37,505 bases of DNA from a virus. This document shows positions 5,622 to 37,140 of this stretch, one piece after another. Position 1 is the first letter of the stretch. Each line of letters begins with the position of its first letter. The notes beneath the pieces are model-generated. The model had not been told where the DNA came from, did not search any database, and was given only the letters and a program-made list of their open reading frames with translations. The translations under genes were made by a program, and so were the position numbers. Location of the stretch: positions 1 through 37,505 of the IMG/VR virus record IMGVR_UViG_3300024520_000223. One strand, 5' to 3'.

Positions 5622-5626
5622 ATGCT

Positions 5627-5655
5627 TGACACTATCCCCCTCCCTACTGTAAAAT
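5627..5655 (+). promoter_or_regulatory. Sigma-70-type promoter for the head/tail operon
   Basis: TTGACA at 5627-5632 and TAAAAT at 5650-5655 are separated by 17 bases, close to the ideal housekeeping promoter. Predicted transcription starts near 5662. It lies in the first real gap after the packaging genes and points into the virion structural genes, although a terminator intervenes at 5715-5749. Confidence 0.75.
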
Positions 5656-5714
5656 AAGAACAAGCGAATATTAACGGCCGTCCACCATAGCGGCAAGACT
5701 GGCGACACAATGAC

Positions 5715-5749
5715 ACAGCCCGTATCTAATTTAGATACGGGCTGTTTTT
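5715..5749 (+). terminator. Strong intrinsic terminator, possibly an attenuator
   Basis: Arms 5716-5729 and 5731-5744 are perfectly complementary (14 bp) and are followed by a run of five T residues at 5745-5749. The hairpin lies about 55 bases after the start predicted for the promoter at 5627-5655 and only 12 bases before the head protease start codon. It could end read-through from the packaging operon, attenuate the structural operon, or release a short leader RNA. Confidence 0.85.
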
Positions 5750-5761
5750 GTTTGGAGTGCT

Positions 5762-7081
5762 ATGACTACTAATTTATTTATGATTGATTTGGCAGGGGTT
5801 GACTTGACAGAAGGTCAACCGTTTGACGGTATGGCGTTTGGCGAATTCATTGACATGATGGGTAGAGAGGTAGAGCTATCCATCGACGATGCAGATACAT
5901 TTGTCACCAATACACAAGCCGCTATTGATGCCACAAAAACAGAGGGCGGCGAGTTGGTTGGGTTGCCTATTGATGCCGGAAACCATGACAAGGGGGATGC
6001 GGCTGGTTGGATTGTAGCCGTTGAACTAGTAGATAAAATCATCCGCTTTACTCCCAAATGGACAAAGATCGGCATTGAATTGATAGGTGAGGGATTACGA
6101 CGTTTCTTCTCCCCCACCGTCAATAATCGGGATAAGGTCGTTCTGGGTGGGGCGTTAGTAAATTGGCCTGCCACAACCGACGCAACGGGCAAGGTGCTAC
6201 TTCGCCCGATTGAACTATCACAAGAGTTGCAATCATTCCAGCATTTTGATGACGGCGCACCCCCTACAAAAGAGATGACGGGGGGGGAGCATGACTTTGA
6301 AATGGTCGTTGGTAACGGCGTGACTTATGCTCAGGTTGGCACACAAGAGCCGCTTCCATTTTCTGTTACAACTACATCGGACAGCACCACTGGCTATATA
6401 AACGTAAGTGCTTTTGACAATGTGAATAGCGGGGGCAATGAGCCACCCGATAATGATGTCGGTGACATCGAAGAGGAAGATATTATGACAATTGAATTAA
6501 CACAAGAGGCTCTTGACGAACTTGTGGACACGCGAGTACGTGAAGCCCTCGAAAATCATGAGCCGGATGGCGATACGGTTGATTTGAATCAATTGGCGGA
6601 GTTGATGGGTATCAACATTGACAGTGCGGCCGATGGACAAATTAATCATTACAAGGAGCTGGCAGAGCTGGCACAGCAGCAGGCTGAAATGAAATTCAAA
6701 AATCAGCTTGCAGAGTTGCAGCGGTCTAATCGTTACGCCGAACTGGCGCAGCGAGTGACGGGCGGGTCGCCAGACGTACCGCGCGGCGTTCCTGTTGATC
6801 CCGATACGCTTAAATCTGAATTGATGAAATTGAATCCAGAGCAAGCGGAATTTTGGGGCGGGTTGCTTAGTACCATCACCAAAGCTGGTTTGACGGAGTT
6901 TACAGAGTTGGGGCATGGCAAGCAGGTCAAACAATTGTATCCCGTGCCTGAACATGCCGAACGGATTTTGGAAACGGCCGTCAAGGGCAATCCAAACCTT
7001 GATTTTGAGGCATGGTTTGAAGCTGCTGGGTTAGATAGCCCGTCCAACTACGATCTTAGTAAATATAGGGAGGTGAAATAA
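5762..7081 (+). CDS. Mu-like head maturation protease with C-terminal scaffold
   Basis: This 439-residue protein has an N-terminal domain like Mu gpI protease: the segment GLPIDAGNHDKGDAAGW places a conserved His at residue 75 and AGW at 81-83, followed by the RFTPKW and RRFFSPTV segments typical of the family. A low-complexity linker (about 170-240) leads to an acidic, coiled-coil-rich C-terminal half (about 242-330) like a scaffolding domain. In Mu the scaffold (gpZ) is made from an internal start in the protease gene. Here an ATG at 6485 (codon 242) follows GAGGAAG, so the same arrangement is likely. Confidence 0.85.
   Translation: MTTNLFMIDLAGVDLTEGQPFDGMAFGEFIDMMGREVELSIDDADTFVTNTQAAIDATKTEGGELVGLPIDAGNHDKGDAAGWIVAVELVDKIIRFTPKWTKIGIELIGEGLRRFFSPTVNNRDKVVLGGALVNWPATTDATGKVLLRPIELSQELQSFQHFDDGAPPTKEMTGGEHDFEMVVGNGVTYAQVGTQEPLPFSVTTTSDSTTGYINVSAFDNVNSGGNEPPDNDVGDIEEEDIMTIELTQEALDELVDTRVREALENHEPDGDTVDLNQLAELMGINIDSAADGQINHYKELAELAQQQAEMKFKNQLAELQRSNRYAELAQRVTGGSPDVPRGVPVDPDTLKSELMKLNPEQAEFWGGLLSTITKAGLTEFTELGHGKQVKQLYPVPEHAERILETAVKGNPNLDFEAWFEAAGLDSPSNYDLSKYREVK
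6485..7081 (+). CDS. Probable internally initiated scaffold protein
   Basis: The in-frame ATG at 6485 within the protease gene has a good ribosome binding site (AGAGGAAG, about 8 bases upstream) and lies right at the boundary between the linker and the acidic coiled-coil region. Initiation here would give a 198-residue protein: an acidic helical first half with repeated LAEL/ELAQ patterns and a C-terminal domain ending just before the decoration gene. Mu makes scaffold gpZ in this way. That it happens here is inferred from layout and ribosome binding site. Confidence 0.5.
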   Translation: MTIELTQEALDELVDTRVREALENHEPDGDTVDLNQLAELMGINIDSAADGQINHYKELAELAQQQAEMKFKNQLAELQRSNRYAELAQRVTGGSPDVPRGVPVDPDTLKSELMKLNPEQAEFWGGLLSTITKAGLTEFTELGHGKQVKQLYPVPEHAERILETAVKGNPNLDFEAWFEAAGLDSPSNYDLSKYREVK

Positions 7082-21382: not shown

Positions 21383-24343
21383 ATGAGTGACAATTTGATC
21401 ACGCAGACAACTGTGTCAACAGTACCGAGCGGCAGCGTTATAGCAACAGAGGATATAGGCTCTGCTCATTATCAAAAAGTCGTAGTTGCATTAACCGACG
21501 GCACAACAATCAACGGCTTGCTTGACGTTGGGCAGTTGGCAATGGCGGCATCTATTCCCGTCGTCATTGCCTCCGATCAATCTTCGATTACCGTTGATTT
21601 ATCAGCAACCGATAACGCGGTATTAGACCAGATTGAAGTTAATACCAGTTATGGAGACAACACGGGCGGCGGTGTTGAAGCTGGTTCATTGCGAGTTACG
21701 TTAGCAAATGACTCAACGGGATTACTATCTGTAGACGATAACGGCGGATCGTTGACGATTGATAACGCTGATATAACCACCATCGCAGGTGCGGTTTCTG
21801 GCTCTGAAATGCAGGTGGACGTAATAACATCTGCCCTGCCCACGGGTGCGGCAACAGCAGCTAACCAGTTGGCAGACGGTCATAACGTGACGATTGACAA
21901 TGCCTCTGGCGGTTCGGCCGTCAATATTCAAGACGGTGGAAATTCGATTACAGTTGATAATGGCGGTACGTTTGTGGTACAGGAAGATGGTGCAGCTTTA
22001 ACCGCCTTGCAATTGATAGACGACGCGGTAGCTACGCTAGGGACTTCTACTTATTCAGAAGCAACAACCAAAGGAAATATCATTGGTGCGGTTCGCAATG
22101 ACACATTGGCCGCACTCGCAAATACAGATAACGAGATTGCACCTTTGCAGGTAAACGCCTCTGGCGCACTATACATTCAGGAAGGCACGGCACTAGATGT
22201 AAGTGGGGCAACGGTAATAGTAGACGGGTCTGGGGTTACGCAGCCAATAAGTGCGGCAAGTTTACCGTTGCCAAGCGGGGCAGCTACAGCGGCGAATCAA
22301 TCCACTGGTAACACAAGCCTGTCAACTATTGCGGGGGCGGTTTCTGGCACCGAAATGCAGGTCGATGTTTTAACGATGCCATCGACGGCCGTTACCAACA
22401 CAGGTACTTTTGCGGTGCAAGAGGATGGCGCGGCATTAACGGCTTTACAGTTGATTGATGATACCGTCTATACCGACGATACAAGCACACATGCCACCGG
22501 AACCAGCAAAGGGCTGGGCATGATGGCGGCAGCAACGCCAACCGATGGGTCGGTTGATGCAAATGACATTGGGATGCTTTCCATGTCAACCGACAGACGG
22601 CTGTTAGTTGATTCTCAAATTGTAGGCACGGATGCGGCTCTTGACGTAAGCGCGGCAACGGTAACGGTTGACGGCTCGGGGGTTACGCAACCAATAAGCG
22701 GAACAGTTACCGCTAATCTATCGGCAACTGACAATGCAGTTTTGGATCAAATAGAAGTCAATACCAGCTATGGAGACAACACGGGCGGCGGTGTTGAGTC
22801 CGGCTCGTTGCGGGTTACGTTAGCAAATGATTCAACGGGATTACTATCTGTAGACGATAACGGCGGATCGTTGACGATTGATAACGCTGATATAACCACC
22901 ATCGCAGGTGCGGTTTCTGGCTCTGAAATGCAGGTGGACGTAATAACATCTGCCCTGCCCACGGGTGCGGCAACAGCCGCTAATCAATTGGCAGATGGTC
23001 ACAATGTAACTGTTGATAATGCCTCTGGCGGTTCGGCCGTCAACATTCAAGACGGTGGTAATTCGATAACGGTTGACAATGGTGGTACGTTTGCCGTTCA
23101 GGTTGACAACATGGGGAGCGCGGTTGATACCAATAACTCAACTACAACGCCATTAGGGGGCAGTGCAACTTACACCGGAACCGGAACCGATATGTTGGGA
23201 TATGCCGCCGTTGCCATTACGCTATACGCCGATGTGGACAGCGCGACCGATGGCATGACGTTTCAATTTAGCACGGATAACACAAATTGGGATGATATTT
23301 ATACCTTTACGATGGATGTCTCCGCCAGCGATACGCGACGTTTTCAATTCTCCGTAACGGCTCAATATTTTAGAGTCGTTTATACCAACGGCGGCGGTGC
23401 ACAATCTGCATTTAGAGTACAAACAATTTTGCACACGGTTGACATTGACACGTCAATCCACAGGTTGGTTGATAATGTATCGCCTGACAGATCGGCAAAT
23501 GTTGTTAAATCGGCACTCATTGCACAGGCAGCGGGATCGGGCAATTTTGTACCAGTGGCGGCGACGTCAGGCGGCAACCTGAAAATGTCTGTACAAGAAT
23601 TTTCAGACGGGGTTGACGTTGGCAATGGGGCGGTAGGTTCTGAAACATTACGGGTCACGATTGCAAGCGATAGCACGGGTCTGATTTCTGTTGACGACAA
23701 CGGAGGTAGCCTCACAGTTGACAACGCAGCCCTAAGCATCGCGGGCGGCGGGGTTGAGGCTTCAGCTTTGCGTGTGACGTTGGCAAGCGACAGCACAGGG
23801 TTGTTGTCAGTCGATGATAACGGCGGATCATTGACGGTTGACGGTACGATTACGGCTAGTAATGCGGCGGGTGATGTAGCCCACGATGCGGCTGATTCTG
23901 GAAATCCCATCAAAACGGGCGCAAAGGCGGTCAACTTTGACGGCACGGCTCCAGGAACGGCCGTGGCAGAGAATGACAGAGTAAATCATATTGCTGATGT
24001 TTACGGCCGTCAATTTGTGGAAACGGCACACCCCAACCATTGGCATGTTTCGGCAGATTACGCAAGCGCACAAACAAACACAACCGTCAAGGCCGCACCA
24101 GGGGCAGGGCTTAAACTATACATTACCGACATTGTAATTAGCAATGGGGCAACGGCTGGAAATATTACGTTGCTTGACGGTTCCGGTGGATCGGTTGTGT
24201 TTGAATTATACCCAGCAGTCAGTGGCGGGGCAGCTATGCCATGGAGAACGCCGATTGATCTAACTGCTAATACGCTATTGGCAATTACCAGCACGACAGT
24301 AACAACACACTCAGTCACGATTAGCGGATACACGGCTCCATAA
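21383..24343 (+). CDS. Repetitive fibre-like virion protein (986 aa)
   Basis: This acidic Gly/Ser/Thr/Asp-rich protein is built from repeated strand motifs: SLRVTLANDSTGLLSVDD and GGSLTIDNADITTIAG appear in a long repeat at residues about 73-200 and again at about 446-572, with shorter partial copies near 750-830. A different globular C-terminal domain (from about residue 890: VKAAPGAGLKLYITDIVISN through TITSTT-like strands) ends the protein and resembles the jelly-roll tips common in environmental phages. It is likely a tail fibre or surface appendage that binds the host. RBS GAGGATAATATT. Confidence 0.65.
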   Translation: MSDNLITQTTVSTVPSGSVIATEDIGSAHYQKVVVALTDGTTINGLLDVGQLAMAASIPVVIASDQSSITVDLSATDNAVLDQIEVNTSYGDNTGGGVEAGSLRVTLANDSTGLLSVDDNGGSLTIDNADITTIAGAVSGSEMQVDVITSALPTGAATAANQLADGHNVTIDNASGGSAVNIQDGGNSITVDNGGTFVVQEDGAALTALQLIDDAVATLGTSTYSEATTKGNIIGAVRNDTLAALANTDNEIAPLQVNASGALYIQEGTALDVSGATVIVDGSGVTQPISAASLPLPSGAATAANQSTGNTSLSTIAGAVSGTEMQVDVLTMPSTAVTNTGTFAVQEDGAALTALQLIDDTVYTDDTSTHATGTSKGLGMMAAATPTDGSVDANDIGMLSMSTDRRLLVDSQIVGTDAALDVSAATVTVDGSGVTQPISGTVTANLSATDNAVLDQIEVNTSYGDNTGGGVESGSLRVTLANDSTGLLSVDDNGGSLTIDNADITTIAGAVSGSEMQVDVITSALPTGAATAANQLADGHNVTVDNASGGSAVNIQDGGNSITVDNGGTFAVQVDNMGSAVDTNNSTTTPLGGSATYTGTGTDMLGYAAVAITLYADVDSATDGMTFQFSTDNTNWDDIYTFTMDVSASDTRRFQFSVTAQYFRVVYTNGGGAQSAFRVQTILHTVDIDTSIHRLVDNVSPDRSANVVKSALIAQAAGSGNFVPVAATSGGNLKMSVQEFSDGVDVGNGAVGSETLRVTIASDSTGLISVDDNGGSLTVDNAALSIAGGGVEASALRVTLASDSTGLLSVDDNGGSLTVDGTITASNAAGDVAHDAADSGNPIKTGAKAVNFDGTAPGTAVAENDRVNHIADVYGRQFVETAHPNHWHVSADYASAQTNTTVKAAPGAGLKLYITDIVISNGATAGNITLLDGSGGSVVFELYPAVSGGAAMPWRTPIDLTANTLLAITSTTVTTHSVTISGYTAP
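21601..21980 (+). repeat. First copy of a ~380-bp intragenic repeat
   Basis: This segment of the fibre gene is repeated at about 22720-23099. A 146-base core (21713-21858) is identical base for base to the second copy, while the flanks of the repeat differ mostly at codon third positions. Confidence 0.9.
22720..23099 (+). repeat. Second copy of a ~380-bp intragenic repeat
   Basis: This is the partner of 21601-21980. The identical core is 22832-22977. Outside the core the protein sequence is conserved but the codons differ, so the core appears to have been homogenised recently. Confidence 0.9.
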
Positions 24344-32509: not shown

Positions 32510-32537
32510 ATTATACACATTTTGGACTGTTTGTCAA
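32510..32537 (-). promoter_or_regulatory. Promoter of the - strand recombination operon
   Basis: On the - strand, TTGACA (32532-32537) and TATAAT (32510-32515) are 16 bases apart, both perfect. Start near 32503, giving a 5' leader of about 70 bases with the hairpin 32457-32484. Confidence 0.75.
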
Positions 32538-32574
32538 GTCGGCTTTACGCAGAGGGACATTGCCCTTGACAAAC
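32529..32574. repeat. 10-bp inverted repeat covering two divergent -35 boxes
   Basis: GTTTGTCAAG at 32529-32538 is the exact reverse complement of CTTGACAAAC at 32565-32574. Each arm holds the TTGACA box of one of the two divergent promoters, so a single regulator could bind both. Confidence 0.7.
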
Positions 32575-32594
32575 TATGTAATATCCATTAGTAT
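32566..32594 (+). promoter_or_regulatory. Divergent + strand promoter for the small regulator
   Basis: TTGACA (32566-32571) is 17 bases from a weaker -10 (TAGTAT, 32589-32594). The expected start falls within a few bases of ATG 32602, so the transcript may be leaderless or nearly so. Confidence 0.55.
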
Positions 32595-32850: not shown

Positions 32851-32883
32851 GATTATCCGCATCGTCGGGATACTTGTTCCCTC

Positions 32884-32988
32884 TTATCCCTCCCCCTCTT
32901 GACTGGCGATGCGATCATCAATTTTGTTGTGGGGCTGCCTACCTTCTCTGGCGGCTTCACAGCAAAGCGGGTGATGTAGTCCGCTTAT
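32884..32988 (-). CDS. Possible 34-aa micro-ORF with AUA start
   Basis: On the - strand, an ideal ribosome binding site (AAAGGAGG) is followed 6 bases later by ATA 32988, which begins an open frame reading ISGLHHPLCCEAAREG and ending TAA at 32884. The frame looks protein-like, and a CC-E-A-A-REG motif is typical of short phage proteins. AUA is not a usual start. It may be a mutated or mis-sequenced ATG, or the site may be chance. Confidence 0.3.
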   Translation of the reverse strand: MSGLHHPLCCEAAREGRQPHNKIDDRIASQEGEG

Positions 32989-33080
32989 TGTTTACCTCCT
33001 TTTTGTTGAGGGGGCGGTTGAGATGACGGCCGTTCCCCCATTAAGGAGTAGTCTACTTTGGAGTATGTAACGTGAAATCA

Positions 33081-33155
33081 AGCCAGTGAGTCACAAAATT
33101 GTCAAGCAGACTTGTCTGCAACGGTGGCAACCATCTGCAATTGATGGCACTGGCT
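33081..33155 (+). ncRNA. tRNA-sized, tRNA-like module in the large RNA
   Basis: An 8-bp acceptor-like stem (AGCCAGTG with CACTGGCT) encloses exactly 75 bases. The 3' half is a 5-bp stem with a 7-base loop (CCATC, TGCAATT, GATGG; 33131-33147) placed directly against the acceptor stem like a T arm, and TGCAATT keeps the T-loop pattern U...A. The middle hairpin (33106-33119) has a 4-base loop, so there is no usable anticodon and this is not a functional tRNA. Confidence 0.5.
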
Positions 33156-33250
33156 CATGGGTATATACCGATTTTTGATGGTACGTGATCTGCAACACGC
33201 CCCTTTGCGGAGATGTTTCCGGATCATCGCAAAACCGGATTTAACAACAC

Positions 33251-33393
33251 GCCACCGGTGGCGAAAGTGGTCGCCACAATACCACCTGAGACTGAACGAG
33301 ATTTGACGGCGAAAGTCAGATAGAAAGCCGCTCGGCTCTACTCAAGGTCTGATGGATTTACCAGTTGGTTCGGTTCGACTCCGGCCGGTGGCT
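33251..33393 (+). ncRNA. Second tRNA-like module with expanded central domain
   Basis: GCCACCG (33251-33257) pairs with CGGTGGC (33386-33392) as an acceptor stem. A D-arm-like hairpin follows (33258-33277, loop AAAGTGGT), and the 3' end has the loop TTCGACT (33374-33380), a perfect T-loop sequence, on a partly paired stem. The region between, where an anticodon arm belongs, is replaced by a branched domain of about 65 nt (33284-33348 with two hairpins). It is not a normal tRNA. Confidence 0.45.
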
Positions 33394-33768
33394 CACACTG
33401 CGGAAACCATGACCGCCGTGTAAAACTATCCCAAATTGGTGACAGCCGGAGAGTACGGCATTACAGTATGGTTGGGTACATTTACCGCTGTTCTTAGGAA
33501 ATGCCAGTGGACGCTACTTAGTGCGAGTGGGGATGGCGACTTGCGACCGCCATCTTAAATGAGCAACGTTAAACCGCCCATATTAACAGAATAATAGCGG
33601 CATAAGAAACGGACTATGCAAAATCTCATGCGGGAGATTCAAGAGGCGTCGGCCACACTGTCTCCGAGTGCAAGCGAGTGTACATAGCTGGATAGGAGTA
33701 TACGCAGCCAAATTAGCGACTGGCCTATTATTCTGTTTTTAATACCTTTCCTTGCAGGAGCGATTGAA

Positions 33769-34305: not shown

Positions 34306-34332
34306 TGGTGTCTGTGAGCCACCGAAGCGGCT
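34306..34332 (+). promoter_or_regulatory. Leader element copy 1 (hairpin before gene at 34354)
   Basis: The segment TTGGTGTC...GAGCCACCGAAGCGGCT (34305-34332) closely repeats 34681-34707. AGCC/GGCT and inner pairs form a small hairpin, about 20 bases before a ribosome binding site. The repetition ahead of two consecutive genes suggests shared regulation. Confidence 0.5.
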
Positions 34333-34680: not shown

Positions 34681-34717
34681 TTGGTGTGATGAGCCACCGA
34701 GGCGGCTAAATTTTTTT
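34681..34717 (+). promoter_or_regulatory. Leader element copy 2 with T-run
   Basis: This is the second copy of the leader element (34691-34707 GAGCCACCGAGGCGGCT), here with a better-paired hairpin and followed by seven T residues at 34711-34717, so it can act as an intrinsic terminator or attenuator immediately ahead of the LexA-like gene. Confidence 0.6.
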
Positions 34718-34731
34718 GGGGAATGGAAGTG

Positions 34732-35127
34732 ATGGATGAAAACAAGTACGAAAGGGCACCGTGCGTGAAATGCGGAGGAACATGGTTTTATAAAAGCCAT
34801 AATAGTTGCGTTGCCTGCAATAGGTTAAGATCGCGCAAGTGGCACCATAATAACTATGTATCAGTTGGTATATATAGAAAATACGATACGGATGATATTT
34901 TGAAATTCATCATTGATTCATGGCAAGAAAATGGGTTCCCCCCGACAATTAGGGAGATATGTCGCGGATGTAACATCTCATCGACAAGCGTCGTGTCCTA
35001 TCATTTGGATATTTTGGAAAGGCGCGGCGAGATAGAGCGCAATCCGGCCGTGTCTCGTGGGATTCGATTGTGTAACTGGCGTGTTGTTTTGGAGCCAGTA
35101 GCACAAGAGAAACTTTTGACACCATAA
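34732..35127 (+). CDS. Zinc-ribbon plus LexA-like winged-helix protein (131 aa)
   Basis: ATG 34732 has GGGGAA 8 bases upstream; ATG 34723 is a second option. Residues 11-29 carry C-x2-C and C-x2-C (CVKCGG, CVACN), a zinc ribbon. Residues about 55-113 follow the LexA N-terminal wing-helix pattern: ILKFIIDSWQENGFPPTIREI, then SSTSVVSYHLDILERRGEIER and RGIRL. There is no self-cleaving peptidase domain after it. It probably binds LexA-like operators, either as a repressor or as a competitor of host SOS control. Confidence 0.7.
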   Translation: MDENKYERAPCVKCGGTWFYKSHNSCVACNRLRSRKWHHNNYVSVGIYRKYDTDDILKFIIDSWQENGFPPTIREICRGCNISSTSVVSYHLDILERRGEIERNPAVSRGIRLCNWRVVLEPVAQEKLLTP

Positions 35128-35145
35128 CGTCAAATTTAGTATAAT
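35116..35145 (+). promoter_or_regulatory. Perfect consensus promoter for a structured RNA
   Basis: TTGACA (35116-35121) and TATAAT (35140-35145), spacing 18. Both hexamers are perfect. Expected start 35152-35153 coincides with the first base of helix 1 of the RNA below. Confidence 0.85.
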
Positions 35146-35151
35146 GTAGGA

Positions 35152-35318
35152 AGCTCGTAGGGATGGCGAACCTACAGATGAGCATTAAAAATAAGAGTGT
35201 GCGGCATCATACAAGGCATCTACCTTGTGCGCTGCGGTTTACCCCTACCAATTAGCCGTTGGTAGCTATTAAATCGCACACTCGCTTAAACCGCAGCGCA
35301 CAGAGCAGATGTTTTTTT
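35152..35318 (+). ncRNA. Pseudoknotted RNA of about 167 nt, or cis-regulatory leader
   Basis: Helices: H1 35153-35156/35180-35183 with 35157-35161/35171-35175; A 35195-35203/35275-35283 (9 bp); H2 35211-35216/35223-35228; B 35226-35241/35287-35302 (16 bp); H3 35245-35251/35259-35265 (7 bp, 7-base loop). A and B interleave, so the fold is a pseudoknot, and H2 and B share three bases, so they compete. A run of seven T at 35312-35318 follows. The gene at 35340 starts 22 bases later behind GGAGG, so the RNA may act in trans as a separate molecule or in cis as an attenuator. Confidence 0.7.
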
Positions 35319-35339
35319 GTTACCTATCGGAGGAAAGCC

Positions 35340-35555
35340 ATGAATAAACCAACAATGAAGCGAGAATTAGCCGTATCGTGTTCATATCCATCGACAGGAA
35401 CTATTCATTTTTCAGCAACAAACGACGCAGCCAGTGATGTAGCGCAATTCGGTGTTTTGCATAGCTTTGGCGATGGTAATTACCATCTAATCGTTGATCC
35501 TCGCTATGATTTTGAGGAGGTCGAGGCGTGGATTAGGGGATATGGCGAAAATTAG
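35340..35555 (+). CDS. Small hypothetical protein (71 aa) after the pseudoknot RNA
   Basis: ATG 35340 follows a perfect GGAGG; the longer frame from 35259 would overlap the structured RNA. The protein is strand-rich (ELAVSCSYPSTGTIHFSATN, HLIVDPRYDFEEVEAWIRGY) and compact. No family recognised. Its position after the regulated leader suggests the leader controls it. Confidence 0.6.
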   Translation: MNKPTMKRELAVSCSYPSTGTIHFSATNDAASDVAQFGVLHSFGDGNYHLIVDPRYDFEEVEAWIRGYGEN

Positions 35556-35566
35556 CGGGGGTGATC

Positions 35567-35845
35567 ATGAAGATAACACTGGATGACGGTCAACTAAATG
35601 TCGATGCTGTTAGAGCGATGTGGGAGCAGCCAAAATTAGCAAGTCTTGAAGATGTTCTGACGGCAGTTATTTATTTTATGGATGACATCGGTCGTGACGG
35701 ATACATCGGTCATGATGGGTATATAAACTATGATCGTATTTCTGCTGCCGGCATGTTGAGATATTTGTGCAATGTAGCTATATCAGAATTGCCCTCAGAA
35801 GATAGATCCGAGGCGATGGAAGGGGCAATCTATGACACAATATGA
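35567..35845 (+). CDS. Small acidic protein (92 aa)
   Basis: ATG 35567 is preferred over GTG 35561; GGGGTGA precedes. The protein is acidic with helices (DVLTAVIYFMDDIGRDG, AAGMLRYLCNVAISEL) and a loop with two GYI-type repeats (DGYIGHDGYINYD). No family recognised. It overlaps the HNH gene by 14 bases. Confidence 0.55.
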   Translation: MKITLDDGQLNVDAVRAMWEQPKLASLEDVLTAVIYFMDDIGRDGYIGHDGYINYDRISAAGMLRYLCNVAISELPSEDRSEAMEGAIYDTI

Positions 35846-36182
35846 CGACTATATACAGTCTGATGAATGGGACATAAGGCGCAAAGAACGGTTGGCAATT
35901 GATGAGTATACATGTCAGGATTGCGGGGTGACGGGTGTCTCGTTAGATGTTCATCATTTAACGTATGATCGTCTGGGCAACGAGCCAATGTATGATTTAC
36001 TTTCTCTCTGCCGTCAATGCCACAACATAGAGCACGGATTAGAGGCGCGGGAGTATGGCATCTGTCAAACGTGTGGCGAGTATTTAATGATAGTCATCAA
36101 AAAAATTAAAGTGCTGGGTGTCAAGTGGGTTGATTATATCTGCCAAGATGGGCATTTTTGGAGCCATAAAAATGATGAATAA
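35832..36182 (+). CDS. HNH endonuclease
   Basis: This 116-residue protein has C28-x2-C31, then DVHHLTYDRLGNEP (His41, His42), and LSLCRQCHN (C60, C63, H64): a complete zinc-stabilised HNH motif. The N-terminal part (YIQSDEWDIRRKERL) matches phage HNH proteins that nick or cut at terminase-type or replication sites. A second C-x2-C (about 78-81) and a final Cys/His pair may form another zinc knuckle. It overlaps the following primase start by 11 bases. Confidence 0.9.
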   Translation: MTQYDDYIQSDEWDIRRKERLAIDEYTCQDCGVTGVSLDVHHLTYDRLGNEPMYDLLSLCRQCHNIEHGLEAREYGICQTCGEYLMIVIKKIKVLGVKWVDYICQDGHFWSHKNDE

Positions 36183-37140
36183 ACGGCCGTTACCCTCAGA
36201 CATCATTGATCGCTTTGGTCATTTACCAGATGCTACACACAGAACGGGCGATGAATTTTCGTCATCTTGCCCCCAATGTGGCGGCGGCCGGGGCGGGAAT
36301 GATTTATCAGACCGCTTTAGAATGTGGGAGAGGCAGGGACAAGCTAGTAGCTTTTGGTGCCGTCGATGTGGGTATCAGGGATTTACAGATGATAACCAAC
36401 CTAACCAAAAACCAGACCCAGCGCGTATTTTAGAATTAGAAGAAATCAGGCAACGCGAAGCCACAAAAGAAGAACAGCGATTAAAAAACCTCATTTGTGA
36501 TTTACGAGAAAAAGCATACTGGCAGGGGTGGCACGATGCAATGGGGGAGAGCCAGCGGCAGCTATGGCGCAACGAGGGCATCCCTGACGAATTCCAGGCA
36601 TATTGGCAGCTAGGGTACAAAGCAGAGTATCGGGGCAGGGGGTTTGTTTCCCCTGCTATGACCATCCCTCACTTTAACGACGAGTGGGAAGCATTGACAA
36701 TACAATACCGTCTATTGTCTCCGCCAACGCCATCGGATAAATATAGATTCCAGGCGGGGTTACACTCTGCCTTATGGCAAGCAGACCCGTCAACCGAAAT
36801 CAAAAATAGCGTTATTGTGTGCGAAGGGATGAAAAAAGCGGCCGTTACCTTTATTGAGTTAGTAGCAAGAGGAAACGGCCGTTTTTGTATTGTCTCTGTC
36901 CCTAGCAAGATGCCAAGCCAAGAATTGATCGACGTGTTGAATAATGCAGACCCACTTTACATTGTATTAGACCCCGATGCGTTTACAGGTAGGAAGCCGG
37001 CAATAAACCGATTTGCCAAAATGGTGGCAGCACCTAAACGTATTGTAAAACTCCCCGTCAAGGCAGATGACTTTTTTACGCTACACGGTGGGATGCCAAT
37101 TGATTTTATCAATTATCTGAATGTAGGAAAGCCAGTATAG
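36172..37140 (+). CDS. DNA primase with zinc ribbon and TOPRIM-like domain (322 aa)
   Basis: Start ATG 36172 has GGAG 8 bases upstream (ATG 36175 is also possible). N-terminal zinc ribbon: C33-x2-C36 and C63-x2-C66 with GGGRGGNDLSDRF between. After a charged helical region comes a TOPRIM-like core with VIVCEGMKKAA (Glu218) and LYIVLDPDAF (Asp about 268-270). Primases make RNA primers at the fork. The catalytic core is short, so it may work with a helicase elsewhere. Confidence 0.75.
   Translation: MMNKRPLPSDIIDRFGHLPDATHRTGDEFSSSCPQCGGGRGGNDLSDRFRMWERQGQASSFWCRRCGYQGFTDDNQPNQKPDPARILELEEIRQREATKEEQRLKNLICDLREKAYWQGWHDAMGESQRQLWRNEGIPDEFQAYWQLGYKAEYRGRGFVSPAMTIPHFNDEWEALTIQYRLLSPPTPSDKYRFQAGLHSALWQADPSTEIKNSVIVCEGMKKAAVTFIELVARGNGRFCIVSVPSKMPSQELIDVLNNADPLYIVLDPDAFTGRKPAINRFAKMVAAPKRIVKLPVKADDFFTLHGGMPIDFINYLNVGKPV

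Follow-up and report, generated by a model that had tools for sequence, protein, structure and literature searches.

A candidate cis-acting transcription attenuator in the 5' leader of an early operon of an uncultured tailed phage

Genomic context of the locus

The locus lies between a small LexA-like gene and a run of genes on the same strand, and its features are collected in Table 1. The window (the whole stretch of DNA analysed, 37,505 nt; IMGVR_UViG_3300024520_000223) is part of an uncultured tailed phage with a GC content of 47%. A second record, IMGVR_UViG_3300024518_000002 (G001; 49,347 bp), is the same phage, complete and circularly permuted; it is 99.97-100% identical to the window across the shared parts and joins the window's two ends. 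The permuted ends of this record fall within the region of a large ORF (21383-24343) that contains internal repeats of approximately 250-390 bp at 90-93% identity. The terminase is approximately 45% identical to the terminases of Streptomyces and Thermobifida phages, and it matches many IMG/VR contigs with identities reaching 63%. Relatives of the terminase in the genomes of several phyla, including Poribacteria, Chloroflexota, Planctomycetota and Actinomycetota, pick out no one host.

The genes downstream of the leader follow one another on the same strand without sizeable gaps, and in G001 the run continues with a replication initiator, a DnaB-like helicase, a DNA methyltransferase and a RusA-like resolvase. 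This gene run is an early or replication module. The second protein of the run (94 aa), like the first, has no family match in searches of Pfam, PHROGs, PADLOC and NCBIfam. An IscB omega RNA was considered and rejected: the HNH protein (35832-36182) resembles the IscB model over the HNH part alone, with a score far under the cut-off. An RNA-guided nuclease is rejected because the protein is too short and its match is limited to that part. No tRNA or tmRNA was found.

The stop codon of the upstream LexA-like gene overlaps the promoter region. The NCBIfam lexA match to the encoded protein is limited to residues 55-115 and lies under the cut-off, and the protease domain is absent as judged by Pfam and NCBIfam. 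On these sequence matches, the protein is a candidate repressor. Two perfect copies of the inverted repeat TTGAC-N8-GTCAA occur in the window, one of which is the promoter copy, and 6 copies are present at no more than one mismatch versus 1.1 expected; the repeat is a possible operator for the LexA-like protein. Promoters with 12/12 matches number only two in the scanned 10 kb.

Several other elements were observed in this part of the window. An 18-nt hairpin, TGAGCCACCGA(A/G)GCGGCT, is repeated at 34315-34332 and 34690-34707, each time shortly upstream of a small gene; the second copy precedes the LexA-like gene and is followed by seven Ts. Back-to-back promoters are found at 32510-32594, with 12/12 matches on the minus strand and 10/12 on the plus strand, and their -35 elements sit in a perfect 10-bp inverted repeat (GTTTGTCAAG/CTTGACAAAC). 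This region is likely a control region between divergent operons. Additionally, approximately 900 nt between plus-strand genes (32851-33768) contain no ORF of at least 60 aa. This segment folds with a z of -2.3 (20 shuffles), has no Rfam match even at E<5, and holds a T-arm-like GGTTCGACTCC near 33367 together with complementary GCCACCG/CGGTGGC segments; it is a candidate for a large non-coding RNA.

Table 1. Positions of features at the leader locus, in window coordinates
Feature	Position	Strand	Remarks
Upstream gene, small LexA-type winged-helix protein	34732-35127	+	Pfam LexA_DNA_bind, E 1.2e-14
Sigma-70 consensus promoter, TTGACA-18-TATAAT	35116-35145	+	12/12 matches; -35 TTGACA 35116-35121, 18-nt spacer, -10 TATAAT 35140-35145; predicted start ~35153
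Inverted repeat TTGAC-N8-GTCAA	35116-35133	.	Covers the -35 hexamer
5' hairpin GCTC-GTAGG...CCTAC-(AGAT)-GAGC	35153-35183	+	First base is the predicted +1
H1 (P1) 5' arm, GAGTGTGCG	35195-35203	+	9-bp helix
P2 arm of the branched state	35204-35235	+	Overlaps the H2 5' arm
Competing 6-bp hairpin, ACAAGG/CCTTGT	35211-35228	+	Inside the P2 arm
Terminator hairpin, H2 + CATCT/AGATG	35217-35311	+	Adjoins the U-run
H2 5' arm, TGTGCGCTGCGGTTTA	35226-35241	+	16-bp helix, interleaved with H1
Apical hairpin, CTACCAA/TTGGTAG	35245-35265	+	Common to both states
H1 (P1) 3' arm, CGCACACTC	35275-35283	+	Closes the branched domain 35195-35283
H2 3' arm, TAAACCGCAGCGCACA	35287-35302	+	16-bp helix
U7 tract (T7)	35312-35318	+	Predicted transcript end if terminated
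Shine-Dalgarno GGAGG	35329-35333	+	Upstream of ATG 35340
First operon gene, 71 aa	ATG 35340, to 35555	+	No family in Pfam, PHROGs, PADLOC or NCBIfam
Same-strand gene run: 94-aa protein, HNH nuclease, DNA primase	35561-37140	+	Family searches

Sequence elements of the leader

An earlier note on this DNA had described a consensus promoter with its start at the first base of a hairpin, and the coordinates, the full match to the consensus and the predicted start were verified. The hairpin at the 5' end has a folding energy of -9.3 to -11.0 kcal/mol (z -2.2) and is plausible as a 5'-end stabiliser. The 9-bp helix H1, the 16-bp helix H2 that interleaves with it, the competing 6-bp hairpin and the run of seven Ts reported in the same note are all present where it had placed them, and the elements are far beyond chance, as detailed below.

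H2 is prolonged across two A.C mismatches into CATCT (35217-35221) and AGATG (35307-35311) and ends at T7, and the whole therefore constitutes a 25-nt inverted repeat with 88% complementarity. The loop of this terminator hairpin is approximately 45 nt, unlike that of a canonical short-loop terminator. H1 and H2 have the core 6-mer TGTGCG/CGCACA in common and share no base; their flanks differ, and from a reading of the sequence the strongest pairing of each arm is with its proper partner.

A Shine-Dalgarno sequence and an ATG follow the T7 tract, as the note had pointed out, although 21 bases were counted between T7 and the ATG in place of the 22 that it gave. This distance is too short for a second promoter between U7 and the ATG, which is thereby ruled out. 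Ribosome-mediated attenuation via a leader peptide (ATG 35163 to TAG 35255) is unlikely, because approximately 10 nt lie 5' of this ATG in the predicted transcript and no Shine-Dalgarno sequence is present there.

Two competing folds of the nascent transcript

The transcript was folded stepwise at each length (nested folding of the nascent chain). With the RNA exposed to 35284-35296, a branched domain closed by H1 is predicted with a probability (P) of 0.96, and in this state the 5' arm of H2 is taken up by the P2 hairpin and the junction. The P2 arm has a P of approximately 1.0 in nascent transcripts ending at 35230-35296 and is lost after H2 and its extension form. The P of H1 is 0.4 at 35299, approximately 0 at 35302 and 0 from 35305 onward; H2 rises to 0.98, and H2 with the CATCT/AGATG extension reaches 0.97-0.99 by 35314. 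The apical hairpin has a P of 0.99 in either state.

These results bear on the earlier proposal that the interleaved helices form a pseudoknot. The interleaving stands, whereas a pseudoknot is not needed to account for it, since nascent folding makes H1 and H2 alternatives; mutually exclusive states in nested folding would be the simplest reading of the arrangement. At full length, enforcing H1 costs approximately 11 kcal/mol relative to the terminator state (the isolated H1 duplex has -14.8 kcal/mol), which indicates that kinetics or a bound factor would be needed to keep the RNA in the H1 state. For the same reason, termination may be the default without a stabilising factor.

Chance tests on the arrangement

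Dinucleotide shuffles of the window contain neither a 16-bp inverted repeat within 110 nt (0/100) nor an interleaved 9/12-bp pair (0/100), and outside this phage, approximately 1.4 Mb of fetched phage sequence contains the 9/16 interleaved arrangement just once, in a G-tract repeat. The full leader RNA is more stable than its shuffles, with z values of -4.2 to -5.3. The H1 domain 35195-35283, taken without the H2 3' arm, has -35.9 kcal/mol (z -4.7; 0/500 shuffles), and the terminator hairpin has -43.0 kcal/mol (z -7.7; 0/500 shuffles).

When the H2 5' arm and the apical hairpin were held fixed and the rest was shuffled, the H1-state energy was reached in 1 of 2000 shuffles, and in 8 of 2000 with the 6-bp hairpin held fixed as well. 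Shuffling of the H1 3' arm alone reached the observed energy in 2 of 2000. Because these conditional shuffles seldom reach the H1-state energy, H1 is no accident of a strong terminator. A contribution of the lower P3 helix was rejected, as shuffling of 35266-35274 leaves the H1 domain no weaker. By energies alone, several other genome windows also rearrange strongly, and no genome-wide uniqueness is claimed for the leader on energy.

Searches for relatives and leaders of related phages

Blastn against phage and plasmid records gave no true relative, and IMG/VR searches with the LexA-like, primase and helicase proteins returned the same phage only. Searches of DNA for the RNA's sequence pattern, exact or with gaps, likewise gave no true relative, the extra matches being coding sequence or ordinary terminators. 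The LexA-like protein has no relative in 50 terminase-related phage records. A covariance model of the leader (R1) found no relative in these 50 records, in 14 bacterial genomes or in 301 further ones; these empty searches are weak evidence because R1 was built on one sequence. No match at the gathering threshold was obtained among the 4227 families of Rfam, and at E≤5 only a miRNA hairpin appeared, far under its gathering score and on the other strand.

Promoters with at least 11/12 matches were counted in the terminase-related set (n=48), together with canonical terminators within 200 nt. A terminator lies downstream of 13 of the 48 promoters, a number that includes two near-duplicate locus pairs and hence somewhat fewer independent cases, and upstream of 3; approximately 1.2 are expected from terminator density. 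The phage itself has a second unit at 5626-5765, in which the promoter (5626) is followed by a terminator (5719-5749), an ATG and a head-maturation-protease gene, and in some relatives, e.g., L066 and L065, two or more consecutive terminators follow the promoter. This recurrent order of promoter, terminator and gene is consistent with terminated leaders, with small RNAs or with processive antitermination.

Inspection by eye had suggested that the leaders of the relatives L066, L058 and L131 are bistable switches as well, and this idea was rejected. Antiterminator pairing in the relatives' leaders is not above chance (mean z +0.15, 20 leaders), and the bistable design therefore seems peculiar to the 35116 leader. 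Two other RNAs were observed on terminase-related contigs. L080:4414-4645 comprises a 12/12 promoter, a structured RNA of approximately 200 nt with no Rfam match, and a strong terminator, after which scaffold/capsid-type genes follow; L058:2281-2346 corresponds to the Rfam int-alpA RNA (RF02996).

Comparison with known systems

The leader resembles attenuators and transcriptional riboswitches in its promoter-proximal position, its two exclusive folds, and a hairpin and U-run just before the Shine-Dalgarno sequence and ATG. It differs from them in its loop of approximately 45 nt and in having no homologues found, and the comparison with riboswitch models proposed in the earlier note was negative, the leader matching no Rfam family, known riboswitches included. 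Judged by the modelled folds, the leader would work like an attenuator, and no membership in a named family is claimed. In lambda-type late leaders (PR'-tR' with Q), a terminator stands soon after the promoter, ahead of the operon. The promoter of the leader is likewise closely followed by a terminator before an operon; however, this operon is early/replication, and no Q-like protein was identified among the phage proteins searched.

Riboswitches have been called a rare feature in phages, and glutamine riboswitches are encoded by the Pelagibacter phage Mosig and the methylophage Melnitz, in the latter together with a tmRNA gene (PMC9004378). The leader is similar to these in being a predicted RNA switch carried by a phage, whereas it has no glnA-type match and its context is a replication operon. 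The put RNA of HK022 is approximately 70 nt long with two stem-loops, and putL follows closely on an early promoter (PMC9378689). Both put and the leader are structured RNAs with which a phage early transcript begins, and terminators follow both; unlike put, the leader is 166 nt long, has interleaved helices and carries a U-run of its own, and does not consist of two stem-loops.

The type III toxin-antitoxin system ToxIN has the order promoter, structured RNA, Rho-independent terminator and gene (PMC5086642), and the leader has the same order. The suggestion of a ToxI-type RNA nevertheless failed: the leader contains no tandem repeats and has no Rfam match, and no ToxN/CptN/TenpN-type endoribonuclease or other toxin family is recognised downstream, where the 71-aa and 94-aa proteins are without family match. 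The antidefence role that had been raised with it also gained no support, the comparison, which was confined to known families, being negative.

Discussion

Computation establishes the sequence elements of the 35153-35318 RNA, its two competing folds, its excess stability and its position. We give about an even chance to the interpretation that this RNA is a 5' leader acting in cis as a transcription attenuator of the early (replication) operon, and we infer that transcription ends at H2 with U7, that the H1 fold works as the antiterminator and that some signal selects between the two. A host-type sigma-70 promoter would start transcription at the 5' hairpin, and as the polymerase proceeds, H1 would close the branched domain and occupy the H2 5' arm. 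If the H1 domain persists over the next ~16-22 bases, H2 would form too late and read-through into the operon would result; if it does not persist, the 25-bp hairpin would form at U7 and transcription would stop approximately 21 nt before the first start codon. The state might be set by a small molecule, by a protein of the phage or its host, by an antisense RNA, or by elongation speed alone.

In keeping with an attenuator, the 35116 promoter and the Shine-Dalgarno-ATG (35329-35342) belong to one transcription unit, a GC-rich hairpin is directly followed by a U-run, albeit with an atypically large loop, and the H1 domain provides a terminator-precluding fold of beyond-chance stability. The order of promoter and then terminator, enriched in terminase-related phages and seen again at 5626 in this phage, also speaks for it. 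Counted against it are the failure of the searches to find a homologue, the ~45-nt terminator loop, and the relatives' leaders, which show no above-chance antiterminator pairing. Additionally, termination may be the default, as is also expected of a stand-alone small RNA.

The earlier note had left open a small RNA or an attenuator, both founded on the pseudoknot. That shared basis is not required, and the attenuator is the better supported of the two because H1 and H2 compete, H2 ends at the U-run, and the U-run lies 21 nt before the ATG. The main rival, a stand-alone phage small RNA of approximately 166 nt that would act in trans on an RNA or a protein of host or phage, is possible, though somewhat unlikely. 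The locus has the full layout of such a gene (promoter, structured body, hairpin and U7), related phages commonly have promoter-terminator units that lack antiterminator features, and the full-length RNA favours the terminated fold at equilibrium; the operon would then rely on leaky read-through or on promoters lying further upstream. However, a small RNA alone leaves unexplained why the upstream helix H1 competes with the terminator and why the RNA ends 21 nt before the Shine-Dalgarno-ATG with no room for a second promoter, and no homologue with a conserved trans-acting body was found. Processive antitermination, in which the leader RNA itself (as in HK022 put) or a phage protein (as in lambda Q) alters RNA polymerase close to the promoter and thereby lets it pass the leader's terminator and later ones, is quite unlikely. 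It would suit the promoter closely followed by a terminator, seen again at 5626 and in relatives, and the location of HK022 putL just 3' of an early promoter, but the layout of the 166-nt leader is unlike the ~70-nt, two-stem-loop put RNA (PMC9378689). Moreover, no common motif was seen in the leaders of the phage or its relatives, and the phage proteins searched included no recognisable antiterminator.

RNase III often processes phage early mRNAs, and the 25-nt nearly perfect stem and the hairpin at the predicted 5' end would be consistent with an mRNA-processing or stability element in which RNase III cuts the long duplex and the early mRNA is shielded by its 5' hairpin, with no switching. 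Such an element is very unlikely, as it does not explain the U7 adjoining the stem or the excess stability of H1. A true pseudoknot, with H1 and H2 formed together in a compact protein-binding RNA of the ToxI kind, is highly improbable. The two helices have no bases in common, and by estimate the -14.8 kcal/mol of H1 added to the H2 fold could outweigh a typical penalty at equilibrium. Nevertheless, H1 forms first, the H2 3' arm is still attached to the polymerase at that stage, pairing over 16-25 bp would mean threading this strand through the H1-closed loop, the connection between H1 and H2 with the CATCT/AGATG extension is 13 nt only, and neither the tandem repeats nor the toxin of a ToxI-kind system was found.

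One extension of the attenuator interpretation, which we regard as doubtful, is that the H1-closed domain could be an aptamer of a kind so far undescribed: on sensing a signal from the host or the phage, it would gate the replication operon during transcription elongation, in concert with the LexA-like repressor at the promoter. Few phage-encoded RNA switches are known. If the attenuator is real, a leader deciding the transcription of replication genes would give an uncultured phage a checkpoint on its lytic growth at the RNA level. The recurrent promoter-then-terminator units point to an early-transcription strategy in related phages.
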